Assembly (NCBI GenBank): GCA_016190825.1
Contig: JACPPV010000015.1
Coordinates: forward strand, 1 to 59,045
Source: Chloroflexota bacterium
GTDB lineage: Bacteria; Chloroflexota; Dehalococcoidia; Dehalococcoidales; UBA2162
Direction: 5' to 3'
Length of the DNA: 59,045 nucleotides
The position numbers were made by a program, and so were the translations under genes. Positions 15,331-22,826 of this stretch are shown piece by piece. Within the stretch, counting starts at the first letter, position 1; every line of letters starts with the position of its first letter. The notes beneath the pieces are model-generated. The model was not told the DNA's origin. It worked only from the letters and a program-made list of their open reading frames with translations, and made no database searches.

Positions 15331-15915
15331 CCGGCTCCTCTTCGAGAGGTTCGTCCCGATACGTCAGGTCATACTTGATACGGGGGCGGACGGCAAGACA
15401 ACTAATACTTATTGCATGTTAACTATGCGTATTTCCTCTCCCCTTGTGAGCCGAGAGCCTGTCCTGAACTTGCTTTAGGAATTGAGGTGAGGGGACACAA
15501 ATCTTACCCTCATCCCGTTCGCTGCGCTCATCCCGATATATCGGGATAACCTTCTCCATCGAGGGAGAAGGGACAAGAAGCCATCCATACGGTTACTTGC
15601 CCGAATAAGCTAGGAGTAATCACCTCTGCTTTCCATCCTTCAATCACGATGACCCCTTCTTCATCCTCCTCATTTCGGACTACTTAAAGGGGACAGCCAC
15701 AATCATCCTCTCGTACAAGTGTGCAACTTCCAAAATTATCGTAGCATTGGATTTTAAGTACAATCATCTGATCGATAGCCAAAAGGATAATTTTTCAGAA
15801 TCAAAAGGATCAATTTTGCCATAACATATGTTTATATGTGTAGAGCCTTTTGGTCAACTTATACGGGACAGGTTAGAATCAAAATAGCACAATCAGAATT
15901 TGGAAAGGAGGGAAG
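15331..15915. other. 585-bp gene-free region with repeat-like palindromes
   Basis: No gene is supported here. The 18-bp perfect palindrome ATCCCGATATATCGGGAT lies at 15530-15547. A second hairpin, CTTCTCC...GGAGAAG, lies at about 15551-15570. Both sit in text (CTCATCCCGTTCGCTGCGCT) of a type seen as dispersed repeats in many bacterial genomes. The last 150 bp are AT-rich and presumably hold the promoter of the next gene, whose ribosome site GGAAAGGAGGG is clear. Confidence 0.5.
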
Positions 15916-16188
15916 ATGAGGCTCAGCCACCGACGGTCAAACATCCAGATCATCGCCGATATCCTTCGAACGGGGGAAAATGGCGCCGGGAAAACGAAAC
16001 TCATGTATAGCAGCAATATGAGCTACAGTCAGACGCAGAGGTACCTCACCTTCTTGCTCAATCAGGGATTTATCCATCGCTTGCATCCTGGCGAACTGAA
16101 GGCAACTTACTGTGCAACAGAGGCGGGTCTAAGACTGCTGAGAAGCATTGAAAATGTCACCGAGATGCTCGGCTTCATCGAAGACTGA
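15916..16188 (+). CDS. Small winged-helix transcriptional regulator
   Basis: This 90-residue protein fits a single winged-helix domain of the kind common in archaea (HTH_45 or Sso10a-like): IQIIADILRTGENGAGKTKL, then YSSNMSYSQTQRYLTFLLNQ, GFIHR and a C-terminal helix starting YCATEAGLRLL. The recognition helix is probably SYSQTQRYLTFLL. It has a strong Shine-Dalgarno GGAAAGGAGGG and is monocistronic. A MITE-like element begins two bases after its stop codon. Confidence 0.8.
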   Translation: MRLSHRRSNIQIIADILRTGENGAGKTKLMYSSNMSYSQTQRYLTFLLNQGFIHRLHPGELKATYCATEAGLRLLRSIENVTEMLGFIED

Positions 16189-17175: not shown

Positions 17176-18798
17176 ATGGAAATAACTGACCTCCTTAAAC
17201 AGGGGCGAACCCGGGAAGTATGGGATTGGTGCTGCGGGTTTATCGATCTGACTATAAACGACTGCATGAGCATTCAGCGCCGGTTGCTCATGGAACAGCT
17301 GGCACTGATGAAGAATTGCGAACTCGGCCGCTATATTCTGAACGGCACTGACCCACGCACTGTTGAGGAATTCAGGGAACAGGTGCCACTCACCATCTAT
17401 GATGACTACGCCCCTTATCTCCTTAACCAGAAAGAAGACGCCCTACCCGCGAAACCGGCAGTGTGGCAGTACACCTCAGGGAAATCCGGGGAATACCCCT
17501 ACCGCTGGGTTCCGGTAACTGAGCGGCAGCTCAAGGAAATCGAGCCACTCCTGTTTGCCCTCGCTTTTTTCTCTGCCTGCCAGAACAGAAACGAAATCAA
17601 CTTCAATATGCATGACACTGTTCTTTACGGCATGGCGCCGCCCCCCTATGCTACCGGCACCATGGCACGCGTTTTTCCTCGTGAAATGTTTGATTTCCTG
17701 CCTCCAATCGAACAGGCAGAGAAGATGACCTTTGAAGACCGGATGCTTCTCGGCTTTGAAGCAGCTCTTTCGAGGGGTCTAGATCTTGGTTTCGCCCTGT
17801 CCAGCGTCGCCGTGGCGATCGGCGAACGTTTTAAGCAACAAGGCGGTAATTCAAGTATCAGTTCCTGGTTGAAAAGGCCCCAGGCTGCGGTCCGACTGGC
17901 AAGAGGACTCGTGAAGAGCCGCCTGGAGCACCGCCAGTTGCTGCCGAAGGACCTGTGGAAACTGAAGGGGCTGATTACCTTCGGCATTGACAGCTCAGTC
18001 TACCGGGAAAGAATCAAGGAATTCTGGGGTATCGAACCCCTCGAGTTTCATGGTTGCACCGAAGCCGTGCTGCTCTCTATGCAGACGTGGGACCATCGGA
18101 GTTTAACCTTCATTCCCCACCTCAACTTCCTTGAGTTTATCCCTGGAGATGAGAGCATCAGGGCGCGGACCGATCCTGCCTACCAGCCGTCCACCCTCCT
18201 ACTGGATGAATTAGTACCCGGGAAATATGAATTAGTCATCACAAGTTTCCAGGGAGGTCCTTTTATGAGGTACCGTCTGGGGCACCTGGTTGAGATAACT
18301 TCCCTACGTAACGACAAGCTTGATATAGACATCCCGCAGATGGTCTTTCTTGGCCGCGTGGATGACCAGCTTGATATCGCCGGTTTTACACGTCTCTCGG
18401 AGAAAGTCATCTGGCAGGCTATTGAAAATAGCGGCCTGGCTTACGAGGGTTGGACAGCCTGCAAAGAGACGAACGGCGAACCCGCACTCCGTCTTTACAT
18501 TGAACTTAAAGAAAACGGGATCAGCGCCGAACAGGTGGCAACCATGGTCCACCGCGAACTCAGAAAACTGGATACCCCTTATGCAGAGCTGGAATCGTTC
18601 ACCGGACTGAAGCCTCTCAAGGTCACGCTGCTTCCCGCAAGCACCTTCACATCGCATGAGGAATACCAGCGCAGGAATGGTGCAGAACTGATGCAGCTCA
18701 GGCCGCCGCATATCAACCCGCCGGATGAAATGATAGCGCTGCTGCTCAGTCATTCCGCCCCCATCGAAGCTGATGCCAGGGCTGCCATCAAAGTATAG
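17176..18798 (+). CDS. GH3-family acyl-acid amido synthetase-like protein
   Basis: The 540-residue length and motifs fit the GH3 family, whose plant members adenylate small carboxylic acids and join them to amino acids. The phosphate-binding motif is YTSGKSGEYPYRWVPVT, the second ATP motif is EFHGCTEAV, and YRLGHLVEI lies before the C-terminal lid. The bacterial substrate is unknown. It follows a membrane methyltransferase by 16 bp and has GAGGGAAAAG as ribosome site. No acyl carrier or peptide synthetase gene is adjacent. Confidence 0.88.
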   Translation: MEITDLLKQGRTREVWDWCCGFIDLTINDCMSIQRRLLMEQLALMKNCELGRYILNGTDPRTVEEFREQVPLTIYDDYAPYLLNQKEDALPAKPAVWQYTSGKSGEYPYRWVPVTERQLKEIEPLLFALAFFSACQNRNEINFNMHDTVLYGMAPPPYATGTMARVFPREMFDFLPPIEQAEKMTFEDRMLLGFEAALSRGLDLGFALSSVAVAIGERFKQQGGNSSISSWLKRPQAAVRLARGLVKSRLEHRQLLPKDLWKLKGLITFGIDSSVYRERIKEFWGIEPLEFHGCTEAVLLSMQTWDHRSLTFIPHLNFLEFIPGDESIRARTDPAYQPSTLLLDELVPGKYELVITSFQGGPFMRYRLGHLVEITSLRNDKLDIDIPQMVFLGRVDDQLDIAGFTRLSEKVIWQAIENSGLAYEGWTACKETNGEPALRLYIELKENGISAEQVATMVHRELRKLDTPYAELESFTGLKPLKVTLLPASTFTSHEEYQRRNGAELMQLRPPHINPPDEMIALLLSHSAPIEADARAAIKV

Positions 18799-18975
18799 AA
18801 AGAGCTTTCTCCGTGGAATAAGGCTCTAGCTGGCCCGGCGGCTATGTGTCGCCCGGTGAAAGAATCCGCCAGCTAACAGGGCTACAACGTTACGCATTAT
18901 TGCGAGCTCGATCACGTCAAGACTCCGTGACACGTCAATAGTTACCCTCACCCGACTGGTTAATTCCACCGAACT

Positions 18976-19021
18976 TTCGTATCACCCCCTCATTGACAGG
19001 ACTGAACGCTTGGTTCATAAT
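18976..19021 (+). promoter_or_regulatory. Promoter of the kinase gene with an upstream TTCGTATCAC box
   Basis: TTGACA (18993-18998), a 17-bp spacer and CATAAT (19016-19021) make a good promoter. The box TTCGTATCAC (18976-18985) lies eight bp upstream of the -35, where activators often bind. The same ten bases occur twice ahead of the response regulator at 21972. Confidence 0.65.
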
Positions 19022-19092
19022 TCCCTCGCAATACATAATCACGCTAATGGCTTCAGACATACACTAGTTGTTGGTTTGGCGGGGGGAGAATC

Positions 19093-21159
19093 GTGACTAT
19101 CTGGGCGCTTATCCCTTTGATCACCTTTCTTTGTTACGTTGCCCTGCTGCTGCTAACATTGCCCTCAGCCGTCCGGCGGGTTAACCGGGCTTTTGCCATC
19201 TATCTAGGCGTTGCCGCCGCCTGGAGCTTCACGTCCTACGTGCTCCACCTTAACGCCTTCCCCGGGCAGGCACTTTTCTGGAATGAGTTACTCGTGGGAG
19301 CTCTCGTCGGCACCCTCAGCACCTACTATTATTTTATCCGCACTTATGTCAATAAATCTGCCGGGATAGGCACCTACATCGGCTTCGCCTTCACCTTGGC
19401 TATCACCGCCTTCGGGCTTAGGGGATATATCGTCCAGTACGCCTACGTCATCGATGGTGTGTTGTACCATGACCTCGGAGCTTCCCTGTATCTCATTGCC
19501 GCTATTTCCATTACTTTTATCGGCGCCGTAATCGTCCATTTGATCAGGAGATATCGCACCGCTGCCGAGTCTGCCGAACGGAACCGCACCCTTTATCTGA
19601 TTACCGGCTGGATGATACTGATTATCGGCGCTTATACGAACCTTATTCCCCCGCTGGCCCGAATACCATTGGACCATATTGGCAGCCTGGCCAACGCCAT
19701 TATCATCTCCTACGCCATCGGACGGTACCGCCTCCTGGATGTCAGGATCGTGTTCCGAAAGGGACTGGCTTATTCCACGCTGACTGTTGTCCTGGGTGCG
19801 CTTTACATACTCTTGCTGTTCACGCTCCAGATTTTTCTGCACGATTGGACAGAGCTCAGCAGTATCGCACTAGGCGCCGCCTTTGCTTTCCTTGTCGCCG
19901 TGCTGCTTAATCCCCTGAAAAACCTCATTCAGAAATGGATTGACCGGCTCTTCTACCGCGAAACCTACGATTACCGCCAGGTGCTGTTGAATTTTTCTCA
20001 CCGGATAAGCAATGTTCTCGACCTCAATGAGCTGACACAAAGCATCCTCGACCCAATTATCAAGGCAATGCGGATAAAACAGGCTTCTCTGCTGTTTCCG
20101 GAGACGGAAACTCGTGACTTTGTTACCCACTTTTCCCAGAACAGCGAGGGCGAGCCAGTCCTCAGGTTGAGGCTGGCCGCAGATAGTCCGATCGTCACCT
20201 GGCTGGAGGAAGAAAGTAAACCGTTGCAGACGGAGCTGATAGATGCCGTACCCAGGTTAAAGGGACTGTGGGAGTCAGAGCGAAACTATCTTGACATGTT
20301 GCAGGTTGCGCAACTATGCCCCATAATGACCCGGGGCAATCTGACCGGCATCCTGGCGCTGGGCAGGAAGGAATCTGAGGCCGCCTATACCGAAGAGGAA
20401 CTCGCCCTGCTGATGACCATGGCTAACGAAGCCGCGATCGCCCTGGAGAATGCAAGAATGCTCGAAAGCCTGAAAAACCAACGGCTCCAGGTGGAGCAGC
20501 TACTGGCACAGGTCGTCCTGGCGCAGGAAGAGGAACGGAAGAGGATTTCGGTGGACCTCCATGACAGCGTTGCGCAGTGGCTGGTGGCTGCCTCCTATAA
20601 TTTGCAGACCTGCCGTCACCTTTTATCAGGGGCCCCTAATGGAGTAGCCGGAGAAGAGCTGACGAAAATGGGCAACACGCTTAACAAAAGTCTGAAGGAA
20701 CTGCGCCGGGTGGTTATCGGCCTGCGGCCCCCGGCGCTGGACGAATTGGGGCTGACCCATGCCCTGCGGAAGAACGTGGAGGACCTGCAAGCTGATGGGC
20801 TGGAGGGCAGTTTTTCAGAGACCGGCACACCCTGCCGGTTGCCGCCCAGCGTTGAAATTGCTGCCTACCGGATTGTCCAGGAAGCGTTGAACAACATTCG
20901 GAAACACGCGCACGCCACGAAGGTGAATGTAACAGTCCGGTATTCCAGGGACATACTGTCCATTGACATCAGCGATAACGGCGCCGGGTTTGACCTGTCC
21001 GAAACGATGGATAGCGCTGTCACGGTAGGCCACGTGGGAATCGTTGGAATGAAACAAAGGGCGGAGATGCTGGGCGGAGAAATAAAGATCAGGACTGGAG
21101 AGGGAGCGGGGACCACGGTGGTCCTGATGTTGCCCGTTCAACATCCGGGAGAGGAGTGA
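19093..21159 (+). CDS. Membrane sensor histidine kinase (HisKA_3 type) with GAF-like domain
   Basis: This 688-residue kinase starts with seven or eight membrane segments (about 1-215) arranged like the 7TM region of some sensor kinases. A GAF-like domain follows (about 300-455, ending LMTMANEAAIALENARM). Then come a HisKA_3 dimerisation helix with His490 in EERKRISVDLHDSVAQW and an HATPase domain (EALNNIRKHAHATK, ISDNGAGFDL, GHVGIVGMKQRAEMLGG). This is the NarX/DesK-type partner of LuxR-type regulators. The start is GTG at 19093 after GGGGGGAGAA. The next gene, a LuxR-type regulator, starts at its stop codon. Confidence 0.94.
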   Translation: MTIWALIPLITFLCYVALLLLTLPSAVRRVNRAFAIYLGVAAAWSFTSYVLHLNAFPGQALFWNELLVGALVGTLSTYYYFIRTYVNKSAGIGTYIGFAFTLAITAFGLRGYIVQYAYVIDGVLYHDLGASLYLIAAISITFIGAVIVHLIRRYRTAAESAERNRTLYLITGWMILIIGAYTNLIPPLARIPLDHIGSLANAIIISYAIGRYRLLDVRIVFRKGLAYSTLTVVLGALYILLLFTLQIFLHDWTELSSIALGAAFAFLVAVLLNPLKNLIQKWIDRLFYRETYDYRQVLLNFSHRISNVLDLNELTQSILDPIIKAMRIKQASLLFPETETRDFVTHFSQNSEGEPVLRLRLAADSPIVTWLEEESKPLQTELIDAVPRLKGLWESERNYLDMLQVAQLCPIMTRGNLTGILALGRKESEAAYTEEELALLMTMANEAAIALENARMLESLKNQRLQVEQLLAQVVLAQEEERKRISVDLHDSVAQWLVAASYNLQTCRHLLSGAPNGVAGEELTKMGNTLNKSLKELRRVVIGLRPPALDELGLTHALRKNVEDLQADGLEGSFSETGTPCRLPPSVEIAAYRIVQEALNNIRKHAHATKVNVTVRYSRDILSIDISDNGAGFDLSETMDSAVTVGHVGIVGMKQRAEMLGGEIKIRTGEGAGTTVVLMLPVQHPGEE

Positions 21160-21161
21160 TG

Positions 21162-21788
21162 ATGGACACAATTCGGATACTTCTGGTAGATGACCACCAG
21201 GTTGTGCGCGAAGGGCTGAGGCGTATGCTGGAGCTCGAGCCGGACCTCAAGATAGTCGGTGAAGCGTCAAACGGGAAAGAAGCACTCGAACAGGTGGACA
21301 GGATATCTCCGGAGGTCGTCCTCATGGATATCAAGATGCCGGGGATGGACGGAATAGAGCTCACCAGGAAGCTCAAAGACAAATGTCCTGACTGCCACGT
21401 GCTCATGCTGACGCTGTACGATGAATACCTCCACCAGGCAATCGAAGCCGGGGCGACAGGCTACCTGCTCAAAGACATCAACCGCGAGGAACTGTTGAAG
21501 GCGATCCGGTCCGTTCGGGAGGGGCGCTCGCCGCTTTACATGTCGCTTCCGCCAGACCGGCTGGCGAAACTTACCACTCCCGAGTCCCAGCAGAAGACAA
21601 ACCTCTCCGAAAGGGAACTAACTATCCTGCGGCTGATAGCCGATGGCGTCACGACCGAAGGCATCGCTCACCAGCTTTTTCTGAGTGAGGCCTCCGTAAA
21701 GCGAAGCGTCCACATTATCTTTGACAAGCTGACGGTTCGCAACCGCTCTGAAGCGGTGGCCGAAGCCTACCGACGGGGAATAATATAG
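21162..21788 (+). CDS. NarL/LuxR-type response regulator, partner of the adjoining kinase
   Basis: The receiver domain has DD at 10-11, phosphorylation site Asp56 in VVLMDIKMPGMDG, and Lys in GYLLKD. The C-terminal LuxR-type helix-turn-helix reads LSERELTILRLIADGVTTEG, then LFLSEASVKRSVHIIFDKL. Starts at GTG 21156, ATG 21159 and ATG 21162 are possible; GAGGAG (21151-21156) favours 21162. Its start overlaps the kinase stop, so the two proteins are made together. It is the best candidate to bind the TTCGTATCAC boxes at this locus. Confidence 0.94.
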   Translation: MDTIRILLVDDHQVVREGLRRMLELEPDLKIVGEASNGKEALEQVDRISPEVVLMDIKMPGMDGIELTRKLKDKCPDCHVLMLTLYDEYLHQAIEAGATGYLLKDINREELLKAIRSVREGRSPLYMSLPPDRLAKLTTPESQQKTNLSERELTILRLIADGVTTEGIAHQLFLSEASVKRSVHIIFDKLTVRNRSEAVAEAYRRGII

Positions 21789-21822
21789 ATTCAGCTTTTA
21801 GTTCCCCCGATTAATACGGCTC

Positions 21823-21854
21823 TTCGTATCACTAATATGAATCTTTCGTATCAC
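21823..21854 (+). promoter_or_regulatory. Two direct TTCGTATCAC boxes 22 bp apart
   Basis: Identical ten-base boxes at 21823-21832 and 21845-21854 are one 22-bp step apart, two helical turns. They lie 20 bp upstream of a candidate promoter TTCTGC-17-TACAAT (21874-21902) for the regulator at 21972. A third copy precedes the kinase promoter. This looks like a binding site for a dimeric regulator. Confidence 0.6.
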
Positions 21855-21971
21855 AACGCTATCATTTTGAGACTTCTGCGGCTGACGGCCAAGAGATACA
21901 ATTAAGCAGAATCCAGCTACTGAGGCATCCGCGGCCACAGTAATCAGCCGCTCAAAGGAGCATTCGAGAAG

Positions 21972-22826
21972 ATGGCAAACAATATCCGTGTCCTTCTTGT
22001 AGATGACCACCAAGTGGTTCGGGATGGTCTGTGCACCATGCTAAGACAGGAGCCGGACATAGAAATCATCGGCCAGAGCGCCGGCGGTGAGGATGCCCTT
22101 ACCCAGGTAGCAGTTCTTACGCCCGATATAGTAGTGACGGACATCAAGATGCCACGCATCGATGGGATCCAACTAGCTTTTCTTATCAAAGAAAGACTCC
22201 CTGCCTGCAGCATTATCATGCTGACCCTTTATGATGAGTATCTTTCCGAGGCTATGCAGGTTGGGGCCAGGGGCTATCTCCTCAAAGATATCACCAGCGA
22301 GGAGCTTGCCCAGGCCATCAGGCGGGTTTACCGCGGGGAGGTAGTGGTCAGCGGCAACATCAACCCGGTTTCGGATGCTAAGGAAGCCAACAAGGCCGCA
22401 CCGAAAACAGCGGCTGTTCCCGTGAACCGGCCGGACAGCCCTGAATCGATGCTGGAGGAGATACAACTGGTGATGCCGCCACCCGTGGACCCCAATCAGC
22501 TTATCCGGTTCACCAAGCAGGTGGACAAAACCCTGCACCCCCGCATCGTGCAGGTAGTCGGGTCGTGGCGGGAGGGCACCACCGTAACCGCGGTCCTGCC
22601 GTGGGCAACGCCGCTGGCAGACGCCCTTGCCAGTCTACGGGATTGCCCCGAGGTGGACAGCATCTCCGAGGAACCACCAAAGTGGGAGGCTAGCCGGGAA
22701 CTACTTCAGAAAGCATCTGCCCTTTCCGGCCAGAGGGCGAAACCTAGGAAGACGATCTTCGTCCGGCTAAAGAATTGCAAAGCCACCCCGGAGCCAGGTC
22801 CATCCTTCCTGGCGAAAATGCCCTGA
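21972..22826 (+). CDS. Response regulator with an unrecognised C-terminal output domain
   Basis: Residues 1-120 are a complete receiver: DD at 11-12, phosphorylation site Asp57 in VVTDIKMP, Thr85 and Lys105 in GYLLKD. The receiver is close in sequence to that of the LuxR-type regulator just upstream, so the two probably arose by duplication. After a Pro/Ala-rich linker the C-terminal part (about 160-284) has no helix-turn-helix. It contains LIRFTKQVDKTLHPRIVQVV, then GTTVTAVLPWATPLADALAS, a strand-helix pattern of about 75 residues, then a basic tail (KPRKTIFVRLKNCK). The output is unknown; a protein- or ligand-binding alpha/beta domain is a guess. The gene has the double TTCGTATCAC box upstream. 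Confidence 0.85.
   Translation: MANNIRVLLVDDHQVVRDGLCTMLRQEPDIEIIGQSAGGEDALTQVAVLTPDIVVTDIKMPRIDGIQLAFLIKERLPACSIIMLTLYDEYLSEAMQVGARGYLLKDITSEELAQAIRRVYRGEVVVSGNINPVSDAKEANKAAPKTAAVPVNRPDSPESMLEEIQLVMPPPVDPNQLIRFTKQVDKTLHPRIVQVVGSWREGTTVTAVLPWATPLADALASLRDCPEVDSISEEPPKWEASRELLQKASALSGQRAKPRKTIFVRLKNCKATPEPGPSFLAKMP

Follow-up and report, generated by a model that had tools for sequence, protein, structure and literature searches.

A conserved array of NarL-like operator units and its candidate response regulator in an uncultured Dehalococcoidia bacterium

Introduction

NarL recognizes 16-bp sites composed of two inverted heptamers separated by 2 bp (7-2-7; TACCCCTAAAGGGGTA), and in Escherichia coli its upstream sites serve activation, whereas a start-point site, such as that of frdA, serves repression (PMC4549865). 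DevR (DosR) of Mycobacterium tuberculosis uses at least two closely packed sites per promoter, of which the proximal one overlaps the -35 element, and is subject to autoregulation (PMC3029386). The Dehalococcoidia are mostly uncultured, and few of their regulons have been mapped.

Here, a locus from an uncultured member of the Dehalococcoidia is described that, judged from its sequence, is likely a new example of this known NarL/DevR type of regulon. The analysis covered a stretch of 59,045 nucleotides (the window) together with the rest of the genome and its relatives; boxes, array conservation, spacing, promoter geometry, regulator co-occurrence, and additional targets were computed. The locus shares with NarL the 7-2-7 site layout and the association of upstream sites with activation and a start-point site with repression, the sign here being read from position. 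The half-site of NarL is TACYCMT, whereas that found here is TGAnnC/GnnTCA; the kinase, unlike that of NarL, gave no match to the NarX/NarQ type above cut-off, and as far as can be told this is not a nitrate system. With DevR, a member of the NarL subfamily, the locus has in common a NarL-type regulator accompanied by a kinase, packed sites of which the proximal one covers the -35 element, and possibly autoregulation. It differs in the sequence of its sites, in their arrangement as regular 22-bp arrays of two to three units, and in its predicted targets: a second receiver protein, PAS kinases, and a chromatin-type protein. The last of these belongs to the HTH_45/Sso10a family of chromatin proteins and appears here to be a target, not the protein that binds the boxes. 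Sequence alone was enough to yield an operator motif, a protein that may bind it, and a few predicted targets (the odd receiver protein, a PAS kinase, and the Sso10a-type protein); of greatest interest is the apparent connection of a two-component system with a chromatin-type protein.

The boxes and the 16-bp operator unit

A sequence-only reading of this DNA had noted the same ten bases, TTCGTATCAC, ahead of a sensor kinase gene and twice ahead of an unusual receiver protein (the odd regulator). Exact searches bore this out. The window holds copies at 18976-18985, 21823-21832, and 21845-21854, all on the + strand, and a search of the 1,816,772-base genome, the check proposed with that reading, returned exactly these three, each intergenic and upstream of a gene in a single signalling cluster. 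A first-order Markov model predicts 1.8 copies genome-wide and 0.06 in the window, so the number of copies in the genome is ordinary and their clustering is not. The argument that three copies within 2.9 kb are improbable did not survive as made, because 56 such ten-base triples were counted in the window, probably stemming mostly from longer repeats; it does apply to the pair at 21823 and 21845, since TTCGTATCAC alone among the 56 has two copies within 40 bp of each other (expectation 0.03). The members of this pair are 22 bp apart, or two helical turns, in line with the claimed spacing by whole turns. The kinase box and the second box of the pair (box B) also share a 12-mer, CTTTCGTATCAC, at 18974 and 21843. 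Copies of TTCGTATCAC with one or two mismatches occur in the window at chance level (37 found and 34 expected), and a plain ten-base motif was rejected as a description of the box because allowing mismatches gave no excess.

The ten bases are the right half of a longer unit plus flanking bases; the box was real, but the unit behind it had been missed. This unit is a 16-bp imperfect palindrome with a NarL-like 7-2-7 layout, TGAnnCT-TT-nGnnTCA. A matrix of 24 units reads TGAnCC TTT(A/T) GGCTCA, with 4.25 of the 6 outer pairs complementary, and a half-site permutation test detected no covariation within units (P 0.36). Most relatives carry the sequence TGAACCTTTAGGCTCA, and the TGATACTTT type occurs in this genome and in one other (G010). 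Inverted heptamers with a 2-bp spacer are evident in unit B of the odd-regulator promoter and in the units at the HTH_45 gene (both described below), and poorly formed in unit A and the kinase unit.

The array ahead of the odd regulator

Three units precede the odd regulator on the + strand. Unit A (ACGGCTCTTCGTATCA, 21816-21831, centre -85.5) holds most of the box at 21823-21832; its left half is degenerate and alone it ranks 743 of 59,030 window positions with the matrix, but it is placed 22 bp upstream of unit B and lines up with the intact unit A of relatives. Unit B (TGAATCTTTCGTATCA, 21838-21853, centre -63.5) holds most of the box at 21845-21854 and ranks 4 of 59,030. Unit C (TATCATTTTGAGACTT, 21860-21875) is weak and by itself resembles background (rank 10,199); it is positioned 22 bp after B, aligns with unit C of relatives, and is centred at -41.5, where it overlaps the -35 region of a promoter with the predicted -10 element TACAAT (21897-21902, + strand). 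The boxes reported ahead of the odd regulator are therefore parts of a conserved operator array, whose third unit had escaped notice.

Orthologous and syntenic kinase-regulator-odd operons were found in nine other genomes of the order and on MAG contig L046. Upstream of their odd genes the 16-bp unit is repeated at a 22-bp pitch with occasional one-base slips, and the top self-match lag summed over 11 odd-upstream regions is 22 bp (119 versus 104 for the next). All 14 arrayed promoters contain a -10-like hexamer (xAxxxT, sometimes outscored by another hexamer) relative to which the proximal unit is centred at -41.5 or -42.5, which is class II activator geometry. These promoters have the DevR-like arrangement of a proximal site over the -35 region with adjacent sites. 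Judged from the 22-bp pitch only, binding to the arrays may be cooperative. Control of the odd regulator, proposed earlier as a feed-forward branch, is the best conserved of the predicted links, the array being kept in relatives with the operon.

Additional predicted targets

To search beyond the locus, a two-unit, 38-nt model (R1) was derived from 13 arrays in other genomes; three-unit models were abandoned in its favour because MAFFT introduced gaps. R1, trained without this genome, matched it at G000:C37:46884-46918 (E 2.7e-4). The matched pair has 22-bp spacing, with the proximal unit at -41.5 of TAGAAT, and lies upstream of the gene for a 681-residue PAS/GAF histidine kinase that is 48% identical to the kinase behind an array in G001. 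Applied to the window alone, R1 gave two weak local matches at the promoter of the HTH_45 gene and did not reach the odd-regulator array, where the half-site has diverged. With a 16-bp matrix lacking sites from this genome, the highest scores among 59,030 window positions went to 15797, 15775, 15842, and 21838 (box B), in that order. Near-palindromes at C27:28124, C27:5293, and C32:43308 were left uncounted, as they lie at or within coding sequence and occur at control frequency (45 versus 35).

Related genomes have exact-palindrome 22-bp pairs at other genes, for example at G032:C91:9751/9773, G039:C33:37234/37256, and G002:C90:16623/16645, and the exact palindrome exceeds a reversed-pattern control (13 versus 0 in G032; 18 versus 4 in G039). 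Arrays or single exact palindromes were located ahead of PAS or MASE3-type kinases (G001:C185, G008:C153, and G002:C90), a type IV pilin-like protein (G002:C37), a PilB-like ATPase (G007:C28), and proteins of unknown function (G032:C134 and G023:C198). Some of the single sites may be due to chance.

The predicted target within the window is a gene for a winged-helix protein (15916-16188, + strand; HTH_45, PF14947), assigned to the Sso10a chromatin family by a score of 71.2 bits against NF053610 (cut-off 60). Two array units on the - strand, TTATCCTTTTGGCTAT (15775-15790, rank 2 of 59,030) and, 22 bp further on, TGATCCTTTTGATTCT (15797-15812, rank 1), correspond to the weak R1 matches, and a further unit, AGAGCCTTTTGGTCAA, lies at 15842-15857 on the + strand (rank 3). 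The array begins 16 bases past TACAAT (15759-15764, + strand), a possible -10 element of this gene, which is about the position of relatives' arrays after their -10 elements. Orthologues with an array just past a strong promoter occur in G039, G032, G023, G008, G001, G002, and G030. The HTH_45 and kinase genes are separated by a gene for a GH3-family-like protein (17176-18798), and G001 and G002 have similar proteins at this position.

The sensor kinase (19093-21159, + strand) contains GAF, HisKA_3 (58.7 bits), and HATPase_c domains and an N-terminus that resembles a 7TM region and scores below cut-off. Its promoter, TTGACA-17-CATAAT (18993-19021, + strand), is a near-perfect sigma-70 promoter with a core that is kept in relatives. 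The box at 18976-18985 is ahead of the -35 element as described, at a distance of 7 bases from box end to TTGACA and not 8, and is part of a single unit (CCGAACTTTCGTATCA, 18969-18984, + strand, centre -51.5). The proposal of one regulon for kinase and odd regulator is supported for the odd regulator and weak for the kinase, and it had overlooked the HTH_45 gene and the PAS kinase, both apparent further members. Between the -35 and -10 elements, the kinase promoter has a spacer with the inverted repeat TGAAC-N5-GTTCA, and the corresponding spacer in G002 contains AGGCTCA-N5-TGAGCCA, with half-sites similar to those of the unit.

The candidate binder and the proposed mechanism

The response regulator encoded at 21162-21788 (+ strand) combines a receiver domain (PF00072, 110 bits) with a GerE HTH domain (PF00196, 55 bits), both over cut-off, and adjoins the HisKA_3 kinase, which identifies it as a NarL/FixJ-type regulator. 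Its closest solved relatives are DevR (the closest), NarL, and VraR. It falls below the NCBIfam equivalog cut-offs for NarL (156 against 250), MctR, and MadR, the last being the best (173 against 300). Of the 156 genomes of the order, exactly 10 encode an orthologue, and this set has a sharp boundary (E<1e-110, the next being 1e-79). Arrays (E<0.01) were detected in 8 of the 10 genomes with an orthologue (RR+) and 3 of the 146 without (RR-) (Fisher 1e-9), a partly circular test given that R1 was trained on arrays of RR+ genomes plus G030, and one limited by the shared ancestry of related genomes. A matrix whose training set left out the HTH_45 promoters found strong 22-bp pairs in the HTH_45 promoters of 7/9 RR+ and 0/18 RR- genomes (P 3e-5). 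One genome (G003) has the regulator and lacks an array, and G092 and G072 gave isolated array hits. Because the arrays co-occur with 21162, this regulator is a better candidate binder than the HTH_45 protein; the earlier suggestion that the LuxR-type protein is the natural binder is supported by the distribution of the arrays, which tracks its orthologue and not the HTH_45 protein.

The boxes are probably right half-sites of 7-2-7 palindromes that are bound by kinase-activated dimers of 21162, which would activate the odd regulator and the PAS kinase and repress the HTH_45 gene. Here we infer the identity of the binder, its phosphorylation, and the sign of regulation, the sign from site position only. 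The kinase (19093) would phosphorylate 21162, and dimers of 21162 would then fill the arrays of 22-bp pitch. At the odd gene, dimers stacked on one face of the DNA at -85.5, -63.5, and -41.5 would contact RNA polymerase, and a promoter with a poor -35 element would be activated by the array-bound dimers. The G000:C37 pair would activate the PAS histidine kinase encoded away from this locus, the array just downstream of the start point of the HTH_45/Sso10a gene would lead to repression, and the kinase box would serve as a single, lineage-specific autoregulatory site. A broader scheme is offered only tentatively: in a group of uncultured Dehalococcoidia, a NarL-type regulator with 22-bp arrays might activate a paralogous receiver protein with a new, non-DNA-binding ACT/ferredoxin-like output, together with further kinases and certain pilus genes, and repress the Sso10a protein, giving a two-tier cascade tied to the state of the nucleoid.

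Alternative explanations

The arrays could instead be operators of the HTH_45/Sso10a protein (15916), which would repress its own gene at the start point and modulate the odd regulator and the kinases. This protein is a conserved winged helix, and in several genomes the arrays lie directly past the strong promoters of its gene, a classic site for autorepression. However, it occurs in 87 of the 156 genomes, yet arrays are hardly seen outside RR+ genomes: among genomes with the HTH_45 protein, an array was found in 8 of 9 that are RR+ and 1 of 78 that are RR-, the exception being G030 (58% complete), where the regulator was not found. The array is absent from the 18 RR- HTH_45 promoters compared, some of which have a different palindrome near the -10 element. 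The HTH_45 protein was rejected as the array binder on the basis of this distribution, and we regard that reading as unlikely. It is likewise improbable that another NarL-type or an unrelated regulator occupies the arrays and that 21162 merely co-occurs with that regulator. Co-occurrence differs from binding, and the odd-regulator query matches this genome 21 times, for the most part in receiver-domain proteins, which provides further candidates; against this, 21162 is the sole HTH protein of the co-occurring operon, belongs to the right fold class, and has the sharply bounded orthologue set described above. As a separate observation, some HTH_45 promoters of RR- genomes (L279, L288, and L290) contain other palindromes, TAGTACAATAGTCCTA, TAGTACTATAGTTCTA, and AGGTACTATAGTACCC, over or beside the -10 element, and these are perhaps the operator of the HTH_45 protein itself.

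A functionless chance cluster of three copies is very hard to credit. The chance level of mismatched copies and the abundance of ten-base triples in the window would agree with it, but the array, its pitch, and its promoter geometry are kept across other genera and families, and models trained without this genome recover arrays in it; for the odd-regulator boxes, this comparative evidence contradicts a chance origin. A narrower version, in which the array of the odd regulator is real and the kinase box is a chance 10-12-mer with no feedback on the kinase, has somewhat less than an even chance of being correct. The box was not found in the kinase promoters of relatives, and the unit is solitary, its left half is poorly formed (rank 845 of 59,030), and the adjacent promoter is already strong. 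Set against this are the expectation of about 3e-4 exact ten-base copies in the 311-bp region upstream of the kinase and the 12 bp common to the kinase box and unit B. Of the positive feedback proposed earlier, the box itself is there, but it stands alone at -51.5 of a strong promoter and is unconserved, and from these sequence features autoregulation of the kinase through the box at 18976 has about even odds.

The output domain of the odd regulator

The odd regulator (21972-22826, + strand) consists of a receiver domain and a C-terminal domain of unknown function; PF00072 was its sole Pfam match, and no HTH output domain was found by Pfam. With moderate confidence, the C-terminal domain is predicted to have a beta-alpha-beta-beta-alpha-beta, ferredoxin/ACT-like topology. 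A fold-based name was dropped, as no PDB match was significant (best E 0.22). The domain (22458-22823) belongs to no Pfam family and has matches in 27/393 Dehalococcoidia genomes, many of them in other proteins. In G008, a stretch similar to it ends a coiled-coil-like protein (L217:8349-9443) encoded beside the HTH_45 gene. The odd regulator of G002 (L044:10060-10515) is a 152-residue frame that has lost the C-terminal domain and retains an intact promoter array.
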